From contig BGKB01000131.1 of NCBI GenBank assembly GCA_003116975.1, positions 62,001 through 126,000 of the forward strand: a DNA stretch of 64,000 nucleotides. Direction: 5' to 3'. Source of the DNA: Aurantiochytrium sp. KH105 (lineage: Eukaryota; Sar; Bigyra; Thraustochytrida; Thraustochytriidae). Under the pieces are notes generated by a model. The model was not told the origin of the DNA and searched no databases. It saw nothing but the letters and a program-made list of their open reading frames with translations. Positions 1,261-50,020 of the stretch are shown piece after piece. Each line of letters begins with the position of its first letter. The stretch's first letter is position 1. The translations under genes and the position numbers were made by a program.

Positions 1261-3690
1261 TCAAGGCACGAAAGCAACGCGCTCCGCTGCGAGAGTCACG
1301 GCTTCCTTTTCATCGTCGCCCGGGCCCTTGTACACATGGGCATAAACGTAGCGAGGTATACGTAACTTGATGCGCTTGTTCTCAAGACGCTGTTTCCAAG
1401 TCTCAATCTTGAAAGCACGGGTGGAATGGTTCCACTTGGCAGCTTCCCAAAGCACGCTCCGATCGCGGTACTCGCCAAAGCGCGGATGCACAGTCTGTGC
1501 CATGTACATGCAAGCGAGTCGTCGATGCACCTCGGCACACGCATCACTCAGACGAGATCCGATCCCAAGTCCCTGCCATGCAGGCAGTACCACCGTGCGA
1601 TGGGCACGCCATGTGGCCGTGTAACTTTCGCTGCCTGCTTCAAGATCTTGATGAGGAGTCCCTACCTGCTGAATGGCCGCCACGAAACCGACAAGGCTAC
1701 CTGTTTCTGCCTCATAGAGCACAAAGCACCTCGATTTACGCGACAGGCTCTTGGTCTTGTAGTGATGATCGCGGAAAAGGGCCCACAGCCACGCCTCACA
1801 GCGGCTGAGACGCAAGCCCAGGCTAGGGCGTCGCAAGATGCCACAGGACCCGTCTTTAGATACCTCGACGACGCCACGTGCATCGAGTTTCGCGAGCTGA
1901 TCTTGTTTTTCATCACAAAACGACCCCTCGTTCGTCGCTGCATCAGAAGGTTCGATGCGACCACGCCAGGTGTCATATATCCACTGCGCTGCTGAGGACA
2001 GCGGGCCGAGTACGTCGGCATGGCAGCTCACCACAACCCAGCCTGGAGGCTCATCGTCTCGACTCTTTAGATGGTCGGCCACAGCGCGCGCCACACGAAC
2101 TGCTAGCTTTCGGTCCAGGGCGCTCGTGAACTCATCCAAATAAACGCTGCGGAGGTCCAACACGCGCGCCAAGTTTGCGAGCTCTTGCTCGCCAGTAGAA
2201 AGCTCGGAATATTTCTGTGAGCCGTGCTTGTCAGCGTCCAAAAAAACAAGTCCAAGGCATCTTGTCGCCTCGTGCGCCGAAGCAAAATGCGCAGCAACGC
2301 TGTGCGTTTCTGCCCACGATACACGCGTTGGAGGTCCAAAATGGTGCCTCAGCAACACGCTCTTGGCTGATCCGGACATGCCCGTAATCACCCCCAAGGA
2401 AAACGCTTGCAGTGGGGCCACAGTCTCGCGCGCAGGAACGTGCATCATGCACTGACCGTCAAAGGCACTGTCAAAGAGGCGATCACACGACAGCGTTGCA
2501 TCGTCCGTGGAAACCTTGGTCACGAGCACTGCGCCGCCCTCGCCGGTGCGCGTACCTGCAAAGTTATCGTCAGCGTCATACTGAAACTCGGACTCAAGAC
2601 GCTCCGCTTGGCGGGAGGGTAGGTCGGCATCCGCGAGGCTGTCCTCTGGCACGGGTTCTCCTGCTCGCAATGATTTGATCACAAAACGATCACTAATGCA
2701 TATGCGAACCTTGGGGCTAACAAAGTCCCCCGATCTCGATGTGATGCATCGTTTTGGGGCCGCATTGCAGCCCACGCAGCTAAATATCTCTTCGGGCATG
2801 AGCCACTCGACCGTGTCCATGAGAGCCGTAGACACCACGCATACAATTCCAAGCTTTCGTACCAGTTTGCTCAATGCTGCGCTGCAGGCACGTGCAGTAT
2901 TACGATCAAGCTGATTCGTGAAATTATCGAGGACCAGGATGCCCTTCCCGCTGGGACTCGACGCCTTTTGTAGCATACGCGCCATGACAGCGCGATATCG
3001 CTCCCCTGTCGACAGAATATGATGCGGCTTGCACCACGATGGAATTGAGGTGAGGCCCACGGCTAAAAGCCACGTCGAGGCCTCCTCCACCGAGCCAAAT
3101 TGAGAAACGATCGCCTGCTCCGGATTCCACGTTACATCCTGCTCATCCTCGAGATGAGAGCTCGTTTCAGGCGTTTCGAGCAGAAGTCGCGTCTTCCCGG
3201 CCCCTGTGTCACCCACGATCGCCACGACGCATCCCCCTTTTCTTCCGGCTAGCGCAGTGCTGAGATCTGTACTTGCGTCGGGCTTGCGTGGCCGCTTTCT
3301 TGATGCCGTCAAGGCGCTGCCGCGGGGTACAGCTTGCACTTGTTGAAAGCCTTCTGCGCGCCCATGGTGCTCGCCGCGGACGATTTTCGCTCCAGGAAAA
3401 CACTCAGCCGGGTCGCGTACAGGGGGAGGCGGCTCCAGCTCCACACGGACCGGCTGACGCAGATCCTCAAGCGGAATCTCATTCCCCTCGGCATTTTCAA
3501 TTGCCACAAGCTCCAAGCCACGGAGACGCACATTTGCGCCAGACGGAAGAGCTTCCGTCATTCGTGATGCCAGGTCTGTCTTTGAGCCTGCTGCCGACAT
3601 TCCGAGCTCCGTCAACACGCTCCGGAGCTCCTTCTTCGTCAGCGCCGCCAGCGCGACAGTCCGCACGGACTCGTCCATGTTTTGCGCCAT
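1261..3690 (-). CDS. SAP domain - double ABC ATPase - GNAT acetyltransferase fusion (COG2401-like)
   Basis: An 809-residue protein starting with ATG at 3690. Domain order: an N-terminal SAP-like DNA-binding helix pair (about residues 14-48); a first ABC ATPase with Walker A GDTGAGKT (160-167), signature LSTGE (226-230) and Walker B ILVLDN (251-256); a second ABC ATPase with GMSGSAKS (437-444), LSTGE (497-501) and VYLDE (516-520); and a C-terminal GNAT fold (about 630-790) with the acetyl-CoA loop WQGLGIGS. The first ATPase has Asn where the catalytic Glu after Walker B is expected, so it may bind but not hydrolyse ATP. The ABC-plus-acetyltransferase arrangement resembles the prokaryotic COG2401 family, whose role is unclear. 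There are no membrane segments, so this is not a transporter. A SAP domain suggests a nuclear or DNA-bound role. No intron seen. Confidence 0.8.
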   Translation of the reverse strand: MAQNMDESVRTVALAALTKKELRSVLTELGMSAAGSKTDLASRMTEALPSGANVRLRGLELVAIENAEGNEIPLEDLRQPVRVELEPPPPVRDPAECFPGAKIVRGEHHGRAEGFQQVQAVPRGSALTASRKRPRKPDASTDLSTALAGRKGGCVVAIVGDTGAGKTRLLLETPETSSHLEDEQDVTWNPEQAIVSQFGSVEEASTWLLAVGLTSIPSWCKPHHILSTGERYRAVMARMLQKASSPSGKGILVLDNFTNQLDRNTARACSAALSKLVRKLGIVCVVSTALMDTVEWLMPEEIFSCVGCNAAPKRCITSRSGDFVSPKVRICISDRFVIKSLRAGEPVPEDSLADADLPSRQAERLESEFQYDADDNFAGTRTGEGGAVLVTKVSTDDATLSCDRLFDSAFDGQCMMHVPARETVAPLQAFSLGVITGMSGSAKSVLLRHHFGPPTRVSWAETHSVAAHFASAHEATRCLGLVFLDADKHGSQKYSELSTGEQELANLARVLDLRSVYLDEFTSALDRKLAVRVARAVADHLKSRDDEPPGWVVVSCHADVLGPLSSAAQWIYDTWRGRIEPSDAATNEGSFCDEKQDQLAKLDARGVVEVSKDGSCGILRRPSLGLRLSRCEAWLWALFRDHHYKTKSLSRKSRCFVLYEAETGSLVGFVAAIQQVGTPHQDLEAGSESYTATWRAHRTVVLPAWQGLGIGSRLSDACAEVHRRLACMYMAQTVHPRFGEYRDRSVLWEAAKWNHSTRAFKIETWKQRLENKRIKLRIPRYVYAHVYKGPGDDEKEAVTLAAERVAFVP

Positions 3691-44341: not shown

Positions 44342-46015
44342 ATGGTGTCGCAGGAACTGTGCCAGAAGCTGCTCAAGGCTGAGTCCAACGAGGCGCTCAA
44401 GGAGGTCGCCGACCAGCTCGCCGCCGAGGTCAAGGAGGCCGGCGTCGAGAGCCTCGTCGGCAGTGAGGGTCTCCTCAAGACACTCGACGCCGCTCTCGGC
44501 GACCAGGAGAATGCCATTGCCCGTGAGGGTGGCGTACTCCTCTTTGGCGCCCTCAGCAAGAAGGTCAAGGGCGCCGCCCTCCCCTTCCTCCTCCCCCGCC
44601 TGGACGCCGTCATCGACCAGGCCGGTGACAAGAAGTCCTCGGACCTCCGCAAGGCCGCCAGCAAGAACGCCAAGGCCGTCGTCAAGGCCATGACCCCGGC
44701 CCCTGTCGCCATGATCTTCGACCACCTCCTCAAGGAGGCCCAGGAATCCCCCAAGTGGCAGGTCAAGGTGCTCTGCATGGAGCTTCTCGCCGCCTTCACC
44801 GAGGTCGGCCCCGACTTCATCGCCAGCCGCATGGTCGACCTCGTCCCTGCCCTCTCGGCCCTCATGTGGGACTCGAAGAAGCAGGTCAAGGAGCAGGCCG
44901 CCAAGTCCCTCGAGGCTTGCTGCAAGTCCATCAGCAACAACGATATCCAGCCCTTCGTGCCGGCCCTCGTCAGCGCCATCGCGCGCCCCGAGGAGGTCGA
45001 GGAGTGCGTCCACACCCTCGCCGCCACCACCTTTGTGCAGTCCGTCGATGCCTCGGCCCTGAGCATCACCGTGCCGCTCCTCGAGCGCGGCTTCCGCGAG
45101 AAGAAGACCGCCGTCAAGCGCAAGTGCGCTGTCATTACCGAGAACCTTGCCAAGCTCGTCGACAACGCCCAGCACGTGGCCACTTTCATGCCCGTGCTCG
45201 AGCCGGCTCTCGCCAAGGCCTCCGAGGAGGTCGCTGACCCCGAGTGCCGCTCGCGCTGCGCCGCCGCCCACCAGGCCCTCCAGGACATTGCCAAGCGCGG
45301 CAGTGGCATNAACGGCAAGACCCTCGAGTACGAGGTCAAGTGGGTTGGCAAGTCCCAAGACATGAACACCTGGTTCCCCCGCGACAAGCTCGAGGACCTC
45401 GGCTTCAAGAAGCTCCTCGACGAGGTCGATCGCCGCAAGGCCGCCGCCGAGGGTGCCTTCCAGCGTGTTCTCTCGCAGGCCAACGTCGAGAAGCATCTCG
45501 AGGACGTCGGTCTTGACCGTGAGCTCGGTACGCACAACCGCATCCGCTCCCTCTCGGGTGGCCAAAAGGTCAAGGTTGTGCTCGCCGCCGCCATGTGGGA
45601 TCAGCCCCATCTCATCATTCTCGATGAGCCCACCAACTACCTCGATCGCGAGGCTCTTGGTGCCCTCGCCACCGCCATCAACAACTTCGAGGGTGGTGTG
45701 CTCCTCATTACGCACAACCAGGAGTTCGCCGATGTGACCACTCGCGAGACCTGGGTCGTCGCCAACCACCGCTGCGACATCAAGGGTGATGCCGACTGGG
45801 CCGCCTACGCCGCCGAGGCTCTCGAGCTCGCGGCCGAGGAGGAGCAGGTCGATGCTTCCGGTAACAAGATCGAGAAGAAGCGCACTCCCAGCGATGTCAA
45901 CGCCAAGGACAAGAAGAAGATGATCAAGGCCCTCAAGAAGAAGATCAAGGAGGAGGATGACATGACCGAGTTTGAGGAGGAGTGCGCCATGGAGTGGGGC
46001 CTCTTCTCTGCCTAA
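44342..46015 (+). CDS. Translation elongation factor 3 (eEF3), centre missing at an N
   Basis: The frame runs 557 codons with one ambiguous codon (323, ATN). Residues 1-322 are the N-terminal HEAT-repeat domain of eEF3. From 324 on the sequence is the chromodomain and the second half of ABC cassette 2: EYEVKWVGKSQDMNTWFPRDKL, RIRSLSGGQKVKVVLAA, LIILDEPTNYLD, GGVLLITHNQEF. Fungal eEF3 has about 1040 residues, so roughly 480 are absent: the four-helix bundle, all of ABC1 and the Walker A of ABC2. Such a protein could not work as an ATPase. The single N exactly at the junction makes an assembly gap or collapsed join the likeliest cause; frame is kept by chance. eEF3 promotes E-site tRNA release; it occurs in fungi and several algal/stramenopile groups. 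Confidence 0.85.
   Translation: MVSQELCQKLLKAESNEALKEVADQLAAEVKEAGVESLVGSEGLLKTLDAALGDQENAIAREGGVLLFGALSKKVKGAALPFLLPRLDAVIDQAGDKKSSDLRKAASKNAKAVVKAMTPAPVAMIFDHLLKEAQESPKWQVKVLCMELLAAFTEVGPDFIASRMVDLVPALSALMWDSKKQVKEQAAKSLEACCKSISNNDIQPFVPALVSAIARPEEVEECVHTLAATTFVQSVDASALSITVPLLERGFREKKTAVKRKCAVITENLAKLVDNAQHVATFMPVLEPALAKASEEVADPECRSRCAAAHQALQDIAKRGSGXNGKTLEYEVKWVGKSQDMNTWFPRDKLEDLGFKKLLDEVDRRKAAAEGAFQRVLSQANVEKHLEDVGLDRELGTHNRIRSLSGGQKVKVVLAAAMWDQPHLIILDEPTNYLDREALGALATAINNFEGGVLLITHNQEFADVTTRETWVVANHRCDIKGDADWAAYAAEALELAAEEEQVDASGNKIEKKRTPSDVNAKDKKKMIKALKKKIKEEDDMTEFEEECAMEWGLFSA
45310..45310. other. Single ambiguous base marking a probable assembly join
   Basis: The only N in the window. 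It sits precisely where the eEF3 HEAT domain passes directly into the chromodomain with about 480 expected residues missing. Confidence 0.85.
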
Positions 46016-46085
46016 AGTTTGACTTATGATAAAAGAGAATTTGTGATGATATGATAATGATGATGAGTAGTCGGTGATCGCTCAG

Positions 46086-46250
46086 GATCGAGAAAAAGCG
46101 ACAGCGGACACGAATCGATGTCAACGCCAAGAACCACAAGAAGAAAATGAAAAAGATCAAGGACAACGATGGTAGGACCGAGTTTGAGGAAGAGTGCACC
46201 ATGGAGTGGGGGCTCTTCTCTGCCAAGAGTTTGAAATTATGATAAGAATG
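46086..46250 (+). pseudogene. Decayed tandem copy of the eEF3 3' end
   Basis: This stretch repeats the last part of eEF3 and the start of its 3' flank (original at about 45868-46033). GATCGAGAA, GATGTCAACGCCAAG, GACCGAGTTTGAGGA and CATGGAGTGGGG recur in the same order. It reads IEKKRQRT, then TEFEEECTMEWGLFSA as in the parent. The parental TAA is changed to AAG, so the frame continues five codons to a later TGA. No start codon or upstream homology is present. The similarity continues past the stop into an ATTATGATAA-type segment, so this is a DNA-level partial duplication. It lies between the eEF3 stop and the 3' end of the convergent LRR gene. Confidence 0.85.
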
Positions 46251-46305
46251 ATGAACATGATGACTTGTTGGTGAAGGCCCGAGAATGTTTTTAGGGATGG
46301 GCTTC

Positions 46306-48883
46306 TTAGAAGAAAAGCAAGGCGAAAGCCAGCGACAAGAATACTTGCGTCGTAGCCAGGGCGGCACGACTCGAGGCCCCAGAAGGCTCTGAGCCATTGC
46401 ACTCTTCGTACGGCAGAGGTTCACTGGTGGGCGCGGTACTGTATCGAGAAAATGCTACCAGTCAGGTCGTAAGCTCTTCATCTGTGGAAAATGGAGAGAC
46501 AACTTACATGTCTGTAAGAGCAGTGAGTTCGCTCATTGAGCAAGGGAGCGCAGAGATGGAGTTTCCCGAAATGTCGCTGGTAAAAAGTAAAATCGACGTC
46601 AATACACGAAGTTTTAGCGATTCTGTGACTCTATCGCGCCAACTTACAGGCTTGTGAGGCTCGTCAGGTTTCCAAAGCTCTTAGGGAGGCTGCTGAGCTG
46701 ATTGTTTCGTAGATTTCTAGTCCGAGGCAAATGAAAGAACTGTGAGTCACTCGCGTTTGCGGGCCTGTTAACGAAAACAAAAAAGAACTCACAGGTCGTA
46801 CAAGGTTGTCAGCTGGCCAAAAGCCTCCGGAATCGATGAAAGCTGATTTCCTCCGACATCACTGTATGAAGAAAGAGAGCAGACCTGTCAGTCACGAGGT
46901 TTTTTCGAATGGAGAAAATAACAGATTTGCAGCGAACCTACAAGTCGGACAGCCGCGGAAGATCGAAAATGGCATCAGGAAGCAAGGTGAACTCATTGGA
47001 AGCGAGATTCCTATTTTTGTCATGTTCCCAAAAGAGTACGTCATAATTCGGTGTCAGCAATCTTCCTTTTTCTCTGACGCTTCGAAGCGGAACAACAAGA
47101 TGGATGAAATGAGCAACGTACAGAGTTTTGAGCCACGTGAGACTGCTGATTTGGCTCGAGAAGGTGGACATCTGATTCGAAGCGAGGTCTCTGGATTGCA
47201 ACGAAGTCGAAGGAACTTAGGTTAGAGCGAGCTTCGCATGTGTCAGAAAAAAAGGAAGATATCACGTACAGCCACTCCATTCGCGTAAGATTGTAAATAC
47301 TTTCTGGAAGCGAGGAAAACTGGTTTGAGCGAAGCTCCCTTTGAATTCGACGCGTGTCAGCATCAATGTCGAGACATCGTACCCAGAGAGCAGACTTACA
47401 GTGCGTAGAGGCGCGGCAGGACGCCGATGCTTTCAGGAATGGATGGAATCTCATTCGATCCCAGGTAGCTGCAACGTCGGTTCATCTTTCGTTAGGCGAA
47501 GAGCTATTCTCGAACTGTGCTAGATAAGCTCAACGTACAGGACACCCAGCCTCTCGAGGCCACTGATACTCTCTGAAACGCCAGTGAGCTGGTTCGAGGC
47601 AAGATTGCTGTGTATTTAAAAATTGTTAGCACAATGAATCATGCGCAGGCAACTGGAGAAAGGACTTACAGATCAGTCAAATCCGTAAAGCTGAAAAGGC
47701 TTTCTGGAAGCAAGGACAGCTCGTTCGAAGCGAAATCTCTGCAATTATTTCGAGCGCAACCTCGAGTTAGGTTTCCACAGGGTGACATTCAGCGAGTCGA
47801 GCGTTCTCACTTACAGACGATTCAATGCTGTACAGAGACTGAGGCTTTCAGAAACCGAAGACACAAGATTTGTCGCGAGGTAGCTAGCACAATAATCAAG
47901 TTGTCGTTAGTACACGACGTAAATGGTTCGATCGACCGATGGACCGATATCAACAGCTTGGATGAGCGGACTTACAGCTGCTTGAGAAAACTGAGGTTGC
48001 TGATTTCGTCCGGAACGGAGGTTACTTGATTCGACGCAAGATTCCTGCTCGTCAAGGTTATTTTATGTTTCGTCAGCAAGAGCTTGCTCCTTATCTTATG
48101 CAGCAAAAACGTACAGGTATGTAAGAGCCGTGAGATCGAGAAGGTTATCGGGAATCGAAGTGAATTCGTTCGAGTCAAGCTCTCTTTGCGCAGAAAAAGT
48201 TAGATCAAGAGCGGAACACTTGCAGGGATGAGGATACGTACAGTTTTACGAGCTGATTGAGGCTCGAAAGACCACTTGGCATGGAACTCAGCTTATTATA
48301 CCGAAGATCTCTGGTGGCTCGATCGTTGTTAGTTGCTGACGCAAGAATGTGTCGAACGATGCAGAAAAAAGTAAAACTTACAGCCACCGAAGCGACGTAA
48401 GTCGGTTCATGCTGCCAGGAAGTGCCGTGAGCTCGTTGGATGAGAGCCTCCTGTGTTTCTTTTGTGTGAGCTCTCTCTTTCGCTCGCTCGCTCGCTCGCT
48501 CGCGCGCGCGCGCGCTCTCTCTCTCTCTTTTTATTCTGTCTCTTTTGGAGAAAATAACTTACAAGGTCGTGAGCTTGTTAAGGTTCCCAATAGCTTCGGG
48601 GAGCTTTGCAATGGTTCCAGCTTGGAAGGCCCTACGGTCGCACAAAACACATCATCAGCGAGGCAAATACGCGAGAAGCTAGGGCGCGTCCTGTGGAAAC
48701 TTACATGTTCTCGAGATTTACGAGTTCTCCGAGCGGGGGTGACAGTCCGTCAAAGCTGTCTTCATACACGCATTCGAGTCGCGTAGTCTCGCTCGCGGAG
48801 CACGGCGACGGAAAACAGGTGCAGTCGCCCGCCGCCAGCAACGGCGCGCTGACTAGCACGAATGCAATAGCAGCAAATCGCAT
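46306..48883 (-). CDS. Secreted GPI-anchored-like LRR protein; 17 exons, one repeat per exon
   Basis: Reconstructed by splicing. Exon 1 is 48705-48883: ATG at 48883, signal peptide MRFAAIAFVLVSAPLLAAG and a four-Cys N-cap. Exons 2-16 are each exactly 69 bases: 48563-48631, 48382-48450, 48242-48310, 48115-48183, 47976-48044, 47815-47883, 47670-47738, 47539-47607, 47400-47468, 47270-47338, 47122-47190, 46942-47010, 46793-46861, 46648-46716, 46508-46576. Exon 17 is 46306-46438 with TAA. All 16 introns (58-112 bases) are phase 2, with GTRNGT-type donors and AG acceptors. The product is 448 residues. Each 69-base exon gives one 23-residue repeat of the form LxLxxNxLxxLPxxIxxLxxLxx. The last exon ends with Ser/Gly/Ala, then a hydrophobic FLSLAFALLFF end, as in GPI signals. 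Expected at the cell surface; ligand unknown. Confidence 0.88.
48479..48530. repeat. CGCT / CG / CT simple repeats inside an intron
   Basis: A CGCT run, then CG, then CT dinucleotides within intron 2 of the LRR gene. They account for that intron being the longest (112 bases). Confidence 0.85.
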
Positions 48884-50020
48884 CCTTCAGATCAACTCCG
48901 ACTGGACGACTGTCTTGCTTGCTAACTTGGTTGCTCGCTCGCTTGCTTTCTCTCGATGCTTCTCTTTCCACGACGTGGAGATTACGGTCTGCAGTGCATC
49001 GCATGCCGCGATGGGGCGTGTACGCGTACGTTCTCCCCTCGGCCCGCGCGATTCCGTCCCGCGCCATCGCGCGTGCAACACGCGCGCGAAAGCCAGCTGC
49101 GAGACGGAAGTTTTACAAAATTTCATACATGCTCGAGATCGGTTTCTTCGTGGGACGCACGTACATTCATTCGTGAACTCGGTCGTGTGTTCCAAATCTT
49201 TCCTTCGTTGCTTCGTTTGTTCGTTCGTTCGTTCGTTCGTTCGTTCGTCCGTTGCCTCATCGAGTCTTGCGCACGCCTTCCGCGAAGTTCTTGCCCCAAC
49301 CGGGTTCCCTCGCAGACGTCTTCTGCAAAAGTCCCCGTCATCCAGCTCTGCTCCCCAGCTCGGCAGCGTGCATTGACTCTGCAAGCGTGCATGCTCGTAC
49401 CACCTCTACAACCACCCGCTGGAACGTGCAATTCTTCTCGTCACTTCGCTGCACGACGCGGCACGTCCTTGAAGTACTCGAAGGCCCCGCGAGCCGAGCG
49501 CGACGAGCACGCGAGCAAGGCACAATTCTCGCAGTTGTTGGCTGTTGTTGTTGCTGGTGCGCAAGCGTGCACGTTGTCACAGAGTACCGCCCCCTTTCCG
49601 CGCAGACGCGCGCACGCAAGGGCAGGCAGGGCGCGCACGCTTTGCGTGGATGGACGGGACCGCCCTGGAGACGCTGCTCGAGCAGAGGCCGCGCGAGAGC
49701 GGGAGGTCCCCGGCCGAGGCTAGCCTGGGTGCGGACGTGGATGAGGGCCAAGGGGAAGTCGAGATCGATGCCGCACCCTGGGAAGGGAGCGATGCGATGA
49801 GATATTGCGCAATGCGAGGCGCTGTTCTGGCGCCGCGCGGCGGCGGCGAGATTCGATCTTGGACCCAGCGGGGCAAGGGTGGACGGAGCTGGTGCGATAG
49901 TCGATCGGTCGGCTTGGATCGTGAGATGATGATTGATCGACACATGTAGTATACCTTGGGCCAAGATTATTGCGCAAACCCTGAACCCAAGAAGGGCGAT
50001 CTGCAGAGAGACTTGCCAAG
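48884..50020. other. Divergent region between LRR and acetyltransferase genes
   Basis: About 1.1 kb containing both promoters. It has a GTTC microsatellite (49219-49248). Open frames here have no domains. No RNA gene seen. Confidence 0.4.
49219..49248. repeat. GTTC microsatellite
   Basis: About seven GTTC units, about 340 bases upstream of the LRR-gene ATG. Confidence 0.9.

Follow-up and report, generated by a model that had tools for sequence, protein, structure and literature searches.

The window, by which we mean the whole 64-kb stretch of DNA analysed here (GC content 56.5%), carries on its minus strand a leucine-rich repeat (LRR) gene that runs from an ATG at position 48883 to a stop codon ending at position 46306. 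The original prediction described 17 exons, of which fifteen consecutive ones are 69 nt long, and 16 phase-2 introns with GTRNGT donors, and our re-derivation from the sequence reproduces this model exactly. All 16 introns are in phase 2, begin with GTRNGT, end with AG and measure 58-112 nt. The minus strand of positions 46000-48950 contains 16 GTRNGT sites, every one of which is a donor of this gene. Splicing as modelled would yield a coding sequence of 1347 nt, or 448 codons plus the stop, from the following parts.

48705..48883, minus strand: exon 1, 179 nt, with the ATG, a hydrophobic signal-peptide-like start and the CTCFPSPC cysteine segment; no indels relative to the second copy on C20
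48632..48704, minus strand: intron 1, 73 nt, phase 2, GTAAGT...TAG, retained in C20
46508..48631, minus strand: array of fifteen exons (exons 2-16, 69 nt each) with the introns in between, one 23-residue LRR per exon
First bases of the 69-nt exons, minus strand: 48631, 48450, 48310, 48183, 48044, 47883, 47738, 47607, 47468, 47338, 47190, 47010, 46861, 46716, 46576
48451..48562, minus strand: intron 2, 112 nt (131 nt in C20), containing a GA/GC microsatellite
46439..46507, minus strand: intron 16, the last, 69 nt, phase 2
46306..46438, minus strand: exon 17, 133 nt, with a polar stalk, small residues, a hydrophobic, GPI-like C-terminus and the stop

As had been claimed, each of the fifteen exons encodes one 23-residue repeat with the same cut point, the junction falling after the second base of the codon at a Leu position. 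The frame also closes over the 448 codons, from a signal-peptide ATG to a stop past a GPI-like tail, both of these ends being predicted by inspection. In the product, a hydrophobic start and the CTCFPSPC segment precede the tandem 23-residue LRRs, after which come a short polar stalk and a hydrophobic C-terminus. In Pfam, LRR_8 matches the 448-aa protein in 8 stretches (E = 6.7e-44), and all 11 listed models are LRR models. The tandem LxxLxLxxN repeats and the matches to solved structures place the protein in the LRR superfamily, and the internal exons (15/15 of 69 nt) and introns (16/16 in one phase) make this a repeat-per-exon gene.

To judge how readily such a pattern arises by chance, we searched both strands of the window for successive AG-exon-GTRNGT units of the same length, allowing exon lengths of 45-159 nt. 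The longest run is the gene itself, with 15 units of 69 nt. Only one other minus-strand run exceeds two units; it comprises 8 units of length 50 and lies inside the same gene, because AG recurs within the exons. On the plus strand, no same-length run is longer than two. In raw counts, 69 nt (20 of 109 donors) is outnumbered by length 50 (25 of 109), so it is the run, not the count, that carries the evidence. On this control, we rejected a chance run of equal exons.

The assembly that contains the window is unphased (76 Mb, 367 contigs), and a DNA search of the same genome finds a second haplotype copy of the gene at C20:468775-471540, with 92% identity. Over the 18 kb of C20 that was compared, synteny extends through an 11.3-kb block of 92.8% identity and further blocks of 93.3% and 90.3%. 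Between the two copies, 54 of 1347 exon positions differ and there are no exon indels; in the introns, 89 of 1222 positions differ, and the alignment has 60 gap columns. Every one of the 16 donors and 16 acceptors is retained, and each copy has 15 repeat exons. Differences at codon positions 1, 2 and 3 number 14, 8 and 32, which corresponds to dN of 0.024, dS of 0.098 and dN/dS of ~0.24. Exons free of indels, retained splice sites and a low dN/dS are, at the level of sequence comparison, what one expects of a protein-coding gene that is spliced and maintained by purifying selection. On the dN/dS value and the intact exons, we rejected a pseudogene.

When the exons and introns of the window gene are aligned pairwise and set against a shuffled null, no clear sign of recent exon copying emerges. 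Identity among the 15 exons averages 0.47 and reaches at most 0.62, and intron similarity averages 0.55, where shuffled introns give 0.54. One pair of introns stands out at 0.73 (null maximum 0.66), but the equivalent pair in C20, at 0.68, lies within its null (maximum 0.69). Pairwise alignment had been suggested as a way to pick out recent duplicates, and none is apparent here; with the introns at null level, we rejected recent exon duplication within this gene. Values of this kind are also expected from old duplications, and the gene preserves no trace of how its array formed.

We recognised no orthologue outside this genome, in protein collections made from uninterrupted ORFs, which would split exon-array genes and so limit recognition. 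The whole protein has 1228 matches among 8000 candidates, the best 120 of the 1228 all being LRR-bearing, and residues 1-64 used as a query gave no match.

Several other features of the window and its genome were recorded. Just past the 3' end of the LRR gene, at positions 45865-46245, lies a decayed copy of the 3' end of an EF3-like gene (44342-46015, plus strand), with 75% identity in a 175-column alignment. An 809-aa ORF at 1261-3690 on the minus strand matches ABC_tran and a GNAT acetyltransferase domain above the cut-off, and AAA_16, AAA_22 and SAP slightly below it. For MCM7, the best match outside the window is a transcriptome protein at 82% (source tag mmetsp, a marine-protist collection). 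Near the top, the named matches with full coverage come mostly from stramenopiles (brown algae at 54-55%, oomycetes at 48-52%, with two partial oomycete matches at 55% and 58%), but Lingula (48%) and a partial Brassica match (62%) also appear. A search for light-harvesting proteins in this genome found none. Pieces of a PfaA-like PUFA synthase occur on several contigs (G000 C72/C155 and C61/C290); with 930 bits over positions 6-1035, the match stays under the cut-off of 1010, and below-cut-off matches are likewise present in 11 of 14 control genomes. Taken together, these features make a thraustochytrid the best guess for the host, short of proof.

Sister exon arrays in the same genome

Searching the same genome with the window protein gave 117 matches, most of which, among the matches listed, lie in uninterrupted frames. 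Two loci with many stops among the protein matches, C73 and C98, both prove to be exon arrays, with 17 and 18 phase-2 exons of 69 nt. A DNA search with C73 returned 72 matches spread over 22 contigs. They group into 42 clusters, of which 30 contain 1000 or more matched bases; in these counts, a cluster may combine adjoining genes, and each haplotype is tallied on its own. We read 16 array models in all, namely the window gene, C20 and 14 sister arrays of 69-nt phase-2 LRR exons.

Five sister models (C73, C98, C9, C58b and C367) span both ends of the gene. Each begins with a signal-peptide-like stretch and a CxCxxxPC segment and continues through the LRRs and a CGPQP motif to a Thr/Pro-rich stalk, behind which lie a hydrophobic segment and an arginine-rich part. 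By inspection, this layout suggests a type I membrane protein. Three of these models are open from the signal-peptide-like start to the stop, with 17 (C73), 18 (C98) and 21 exons (C58b, in which one donor reads GTACTT). The C9 array is interrupted by an N run, and the C367 array has a frameshifted exon. Elsewhere, 12 exons of C59 measure 69 nt and a further one 66 nt, and 6 exons were read in C220. C22, C278 and C95 were considered as split LRR genes and rejected, having at most two 69-nt units per strand.

Two observations concern the surroundings of these arrays. The short copy at C220:3337-4939 (L043) has a 3' flank that is 95-96% identical to C9 and C73, and may be an extra copy, a third haplotype or a contig-end artefact. 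A 750-nt stretch beside the C73 array (L034 488-1236) matches, in inverted orientation and with 96% identity, a neighbour of the C356 array (L051 9-758); it is possibly a mobile or shared repeat.

At the DNA level, we found no similarity between the window gene and these arrays, in searches that skip very common words: the window query matched only itself, the C20 copy and one 35-base stretch, and the C73 query missed the window gene. What links them is the architecture, together with the length, phase and splice position of the exons, and convergence is conceivable. The window gene and the sister arrays could be unrelated, with 69-nt phase-2 LRR exons having arisen independently, and LRR similarity by itself is uninformative on this point. 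We nevertheless consider an independent origin unlikely. The two share not only the exon length but also the point at which the repeat is split, the layout of exon 1 (a hydrophobic start and CxCxxxPC) and a terminal exon past the LRRs, and they do so in a genome where most LRR matches, among those listed, are uninterrupted. Descent of the window gene and the sister arrays from one ancestral array is thus the likely course.

Exon turnover in the sister arrays

Traces of exon duplication within the gene are present in C73, C98, C9, C58b and C353, and in all five of these arrays, similarity is higher at lag 2 than at lag 1. In C73, exon identity falls from 0.76 at lag 2 to 0.50 at lag 1, and intron identity from 0.87 (up to 1.00) to 0.61. 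The unit that was copied therefore consists of two exons plus two introns, which in C73 amounts to 306 nt. Intron lengths mostly alternate accordingly, between 81 and 87 nt in C73 and between 78 and 88 nt in C98. Intron 9 of C98 (119 nt) is chimeric, its head being identical to intron 16 at 39 of 42 positions and its tail to intron 4 at 65 of 69. This intron, which is also found in C367, places two B-type exons side by side.

Exon number differs within two of the four apparent haplotype pairs. For C73 and C9, we read 17 and 20 exons, respectively, with one more C9 exon broken by the N run; the flanks outside the arrays are 94.5% and 94.9% identical, although ~750 nt directly upstream differ. 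C58b and C17 have 21 and 9 exons, and are paired on the basis of a 3' flank with 91.8% identity over 441 nt and a shared order of neighbouring matches, the 5' flank being just 70% identical. The other two pairs have equal numbers of units, C98/C367 with 18 each (one of those in C367 frameshifted) and C151/C356 with 11 each (including a 71-nt out-of-frame exon in C356, where the automatic model gave 9 exons and a recount 11 units).

Comparison of C9 with C73 separates the ends of the array from its interior. The first exon and the last two exons of C9 pair one to one with those of C73, whereas 15 of the 17 interior exons are as similar or closer to another C9 exon than to any C73 exon. Separately, the array gene of C9 has a 5' flank (L040 1068-1705) that is closer to C98 (85%) than to the apparent allele C73 (76%), which suggests exchange between paralogues.

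Both repeat expansion by exon duplication and variation in repeat number had been proposed for the window gene. The sister genes bear out the former, with tandem two-exon units, introns up to 100% identical and a chimeric intron, and also the latter, with 17 versus at least 20 and 21 versus 9 exons in apparent haplotypes. The window gene bears out neither, and its two copies do not differ in exon number (15 in each).

An alternative is that the introns were not copied with the exons at all, but were inserted repeat by repeat into an intronless LRR gene, in the manner of introners using a repeated target site. An intronless gene of like layout does exist. This 360-aa homologue (L023 on C26, L030 on C154) has a DCTCKPAPC segment, 23-aa LRRs, CGPQP, a Pro/Thr stalk and a hydrophobic tail, and could be either the ancestral form or a retrocopy. 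Insertion would also suit the preponderance of uninterrupted frames among the listed LRR matches outside arrays, and the window introns, which are on average no more similar to each other than the null. We regard it as unlikely, on two grounds. Introns in the young arrays have been copied along with their exons, as the lag-2 values of C73 demonstrate, and we saw no sign of a dispersed element, since the DNA queries matched their own kind plus the one 35-base stretch, common words being skipped.

Replacement on the concave face

In LRR proteins, the residues that flank the strand leucines line the concave face of the solenoid; in our exon numbering, these are positions 1, 3, 4, 21 and 22. For strand placement only, we used an AlphaFold model of the intronless homologue, built from a two-row alignment and of modest confidence (pLDDT 64.3, pTM 0.60). 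By inspection, a strand in this model at residues 201-205, for example, corresponds to positions 22 to 3.

Among all 26334 sets of five residues, the concave set is the most variable one in both exon types, A and B, in 11 models that include haplotype copies and again in 8 loci. A caveat to this analysis is that exons were sorted into types by their core, which biases variation toward other positions. When the core filter is dropped, in a control that covers two genes (C73 and C353), the concave set ranks 3 (A) and 1 (B) of 26334. The sister arrays contribute 178 counted exons without N, of which one (the tenth of C17) is a false detector call and 40 are neither type A nor type B.

Substitution rates point the same way. 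We sampled 8 of the 14 sister models, one per apparent haplotype pair, leaving aside C9, C367, C356, C17, C58a.1 and C220. Concave dN/dS is 2.15 for 43 A exons (bootstrap 1.25-3.64) and 1.52 for 42 B exons (1.09-2.01), compared to 0.35 and 0.41 elsewhere in the repeat. Taken gene by gene, the concave ratio exceeds 1 in all eight B sets and in seven of the eight A sets, the minimum being 1.01 (C58b, B). For the eighth A set, C123, the ratio is not computable, and pS (0.81) is higher than pN (0.48) on the concave residues. In C73, where changes are few, non-concave dN/dS is near neutral as well (0.78 and 1.07). The comparison of C98 with C367 leaves out C98 exon 17, whose C367 counterpart is frameshifted; in it, the concave set has 11 replacement and 2 silent changes and the other positions 6 and 12 (Fisher p = 0.009).

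The window gene shows no sign of this excess, either in the comparison with C20 or in the within-gene ranking. Between its two copies, the concave set has 3 replacement and 8 silent changes versus 14 and 13 elsewhere, a difference that is not significant (p = 0.28), and among the 26334 sets ranked within the gene, the concave one comes 652nd.

A reading of the young arrays as repeats in decay or as faults of assembly, with the replacement excess reflecting relaxed constraint or gene-conversion noise, is improbable: frameshifted, 71-nt and N-interrupted exons do occur (in C367, C356 and C9), and C220 is short at 6 exons, but C73, C98 and C58b are open throughout, and change concentrated on concave residues with constraint elsewhere (pooled dN/dS 0.35-0.41) is not what relaxation predicts.

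Known parallels and interpretation

Repeat-per-exon LRR genes are familiar from other lineages. Plant LRR kinases have phase-2 repeat exons, and LRR exons in animals and plants are mostly ~72 nt long, with a fixed repeat number; the genes described here resemble them in approximate exon size and in phase, but differ in exon length and, in the sister arrays, in number. In the variable lymphocyte receptors of lampreys, which are GPI-anchored, LRR modules are assorted somatically from cassettes and diversity lies on the concave face. These receptors resemble the present family in module assortment and concave diversity, but their assembly is somatic, and nothing in the present data points to somatic change. 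The best solved-structure match of the window protein is a SHOC2-type LRR of the same repeat type (PDB 7t7a, E = 1.2e-74). SHOC2 is cytoplasmic, unlike the window protein, which is predicted to be of secreted type.

The closest parallel is with LRR-ROCO genes of brown algae, which were reportedly also treated by Zambounis et al. in 2012. These genes have 72-bp phase-2 exons that each encode one 23-residue LRR, with exon shuffling, alternative splicing and four concave sites under positive selection, and S. japonica has 15 further, non-ROCO sequences with shuffling LRR exons (PMC11378527). The same source cites phase-2 LRR repeat exons in gonadotropin receptors. Our family, also from a stramenopile, shares with the algal genes the single 23-residue LRR per phase-2 exon and, in the young sisters, the exon shuffling and the selection on concave residues. 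It differs in having 69-nt exons, a signal-peptide-like start and a transmembrane or GPI-like end, whereas the algal proteins are LRR-ROC-COR GTPases. Membership in the ROCO family was rejected for the window gene, as its 448-aa product has no ROC-COR and all 11 listed Pfam models are LRR models.

A second parallel comes from Tetrahymena, where thousands of genes have tandem 90-bp phase-2 LRR exons; the younger of these genes contain intragenic nucleotide repeats and the older ones do not (PMC6564038). The window gene, which lacks such repeats, resembles the old genes, and C73 and C98, which have them, the young ones. Here, the exons are 69 nt long, and there are 30 sizeable clusters in an unphased assembly rather than thousands of genes in a ciliate.

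For thraustochytrids, Labyrinthulomycetes or Schizochytrium, a literature search that left most subscription journals outside its reach returned no report of such exon arrays in LRR genes. A term search for 'LRR' and 'leucine-rich' found neither in the main text of two thraustochytrid genome papers. A T. aureum transcriptome study mentions relatively few LRR proteins, which speaks neither for nor against an array family (PMC8917795).

Taken together, these observations support a model, to which we assign a probability of about 70%, in which the window gene is an old, settled member of a family of exon-array LRR surface proteins, whose young relatives exchange exons and carry concave residues under diversifying selection. 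The window gene looks settled because its introns have diverged, its repeat number is equal in both copies and its concave face shows no sign of diversification. Since each 69-nt exon would correspond to one LRR between phase-2 introns, any exon could be duplicated or lost by recombination with both the frame and the solenoid left intact. In young members, unequal exchange of the two-exon, two-intron unit would lengthen and shorten the arrays, and selection would diversify five residues per repeat on the concave, probably ligand-facing sheet. Our best guess is that the young members act as single-pass surface receptors that recognise a microbe, prey, a mate or self, and that the window protein, with its GPI-like tail and undiversified concave face, would bind a more constant ligand. 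What the sequence itself shows is the structure of the gene, its conservation between haplotypes, the tandem unit, the chimeric intron, the differing exon numbers in the assembly and the clustering of replacement change; splicing, membrane anchoring, ligand binding, the common descent of the window gene and the young arrays, and the taxonomic placement are inferences.

Brown algae are already known to have genes that combine one LRR per exon with exon turnover and a selected binding face, and exon turnover is also on record for Tetrahymena. The present case concerns proteins that are secreted or anchored in the membrane, in a unicellular and probably heterotrophic stramenopile, where exon numbers differ between apparent haplotypes of one genome. 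More tentatively, a thraustochytrid-like protist may possess a diversifying receptor repertoire in which LRR exons are traded as cassettes, so that array length and binding face differ between haplotypes and possibly among the cells of a clone, with the window gene as the conserved counterpart. With exon-number differences visible within one genome, the pace and mechanism of cassette exchange could be measured directly in a single-celled organism, the settled gene beside its changing young relatives serving as a built-in control, and the case bears on the origin of recognition repertoires outside animals and plants.
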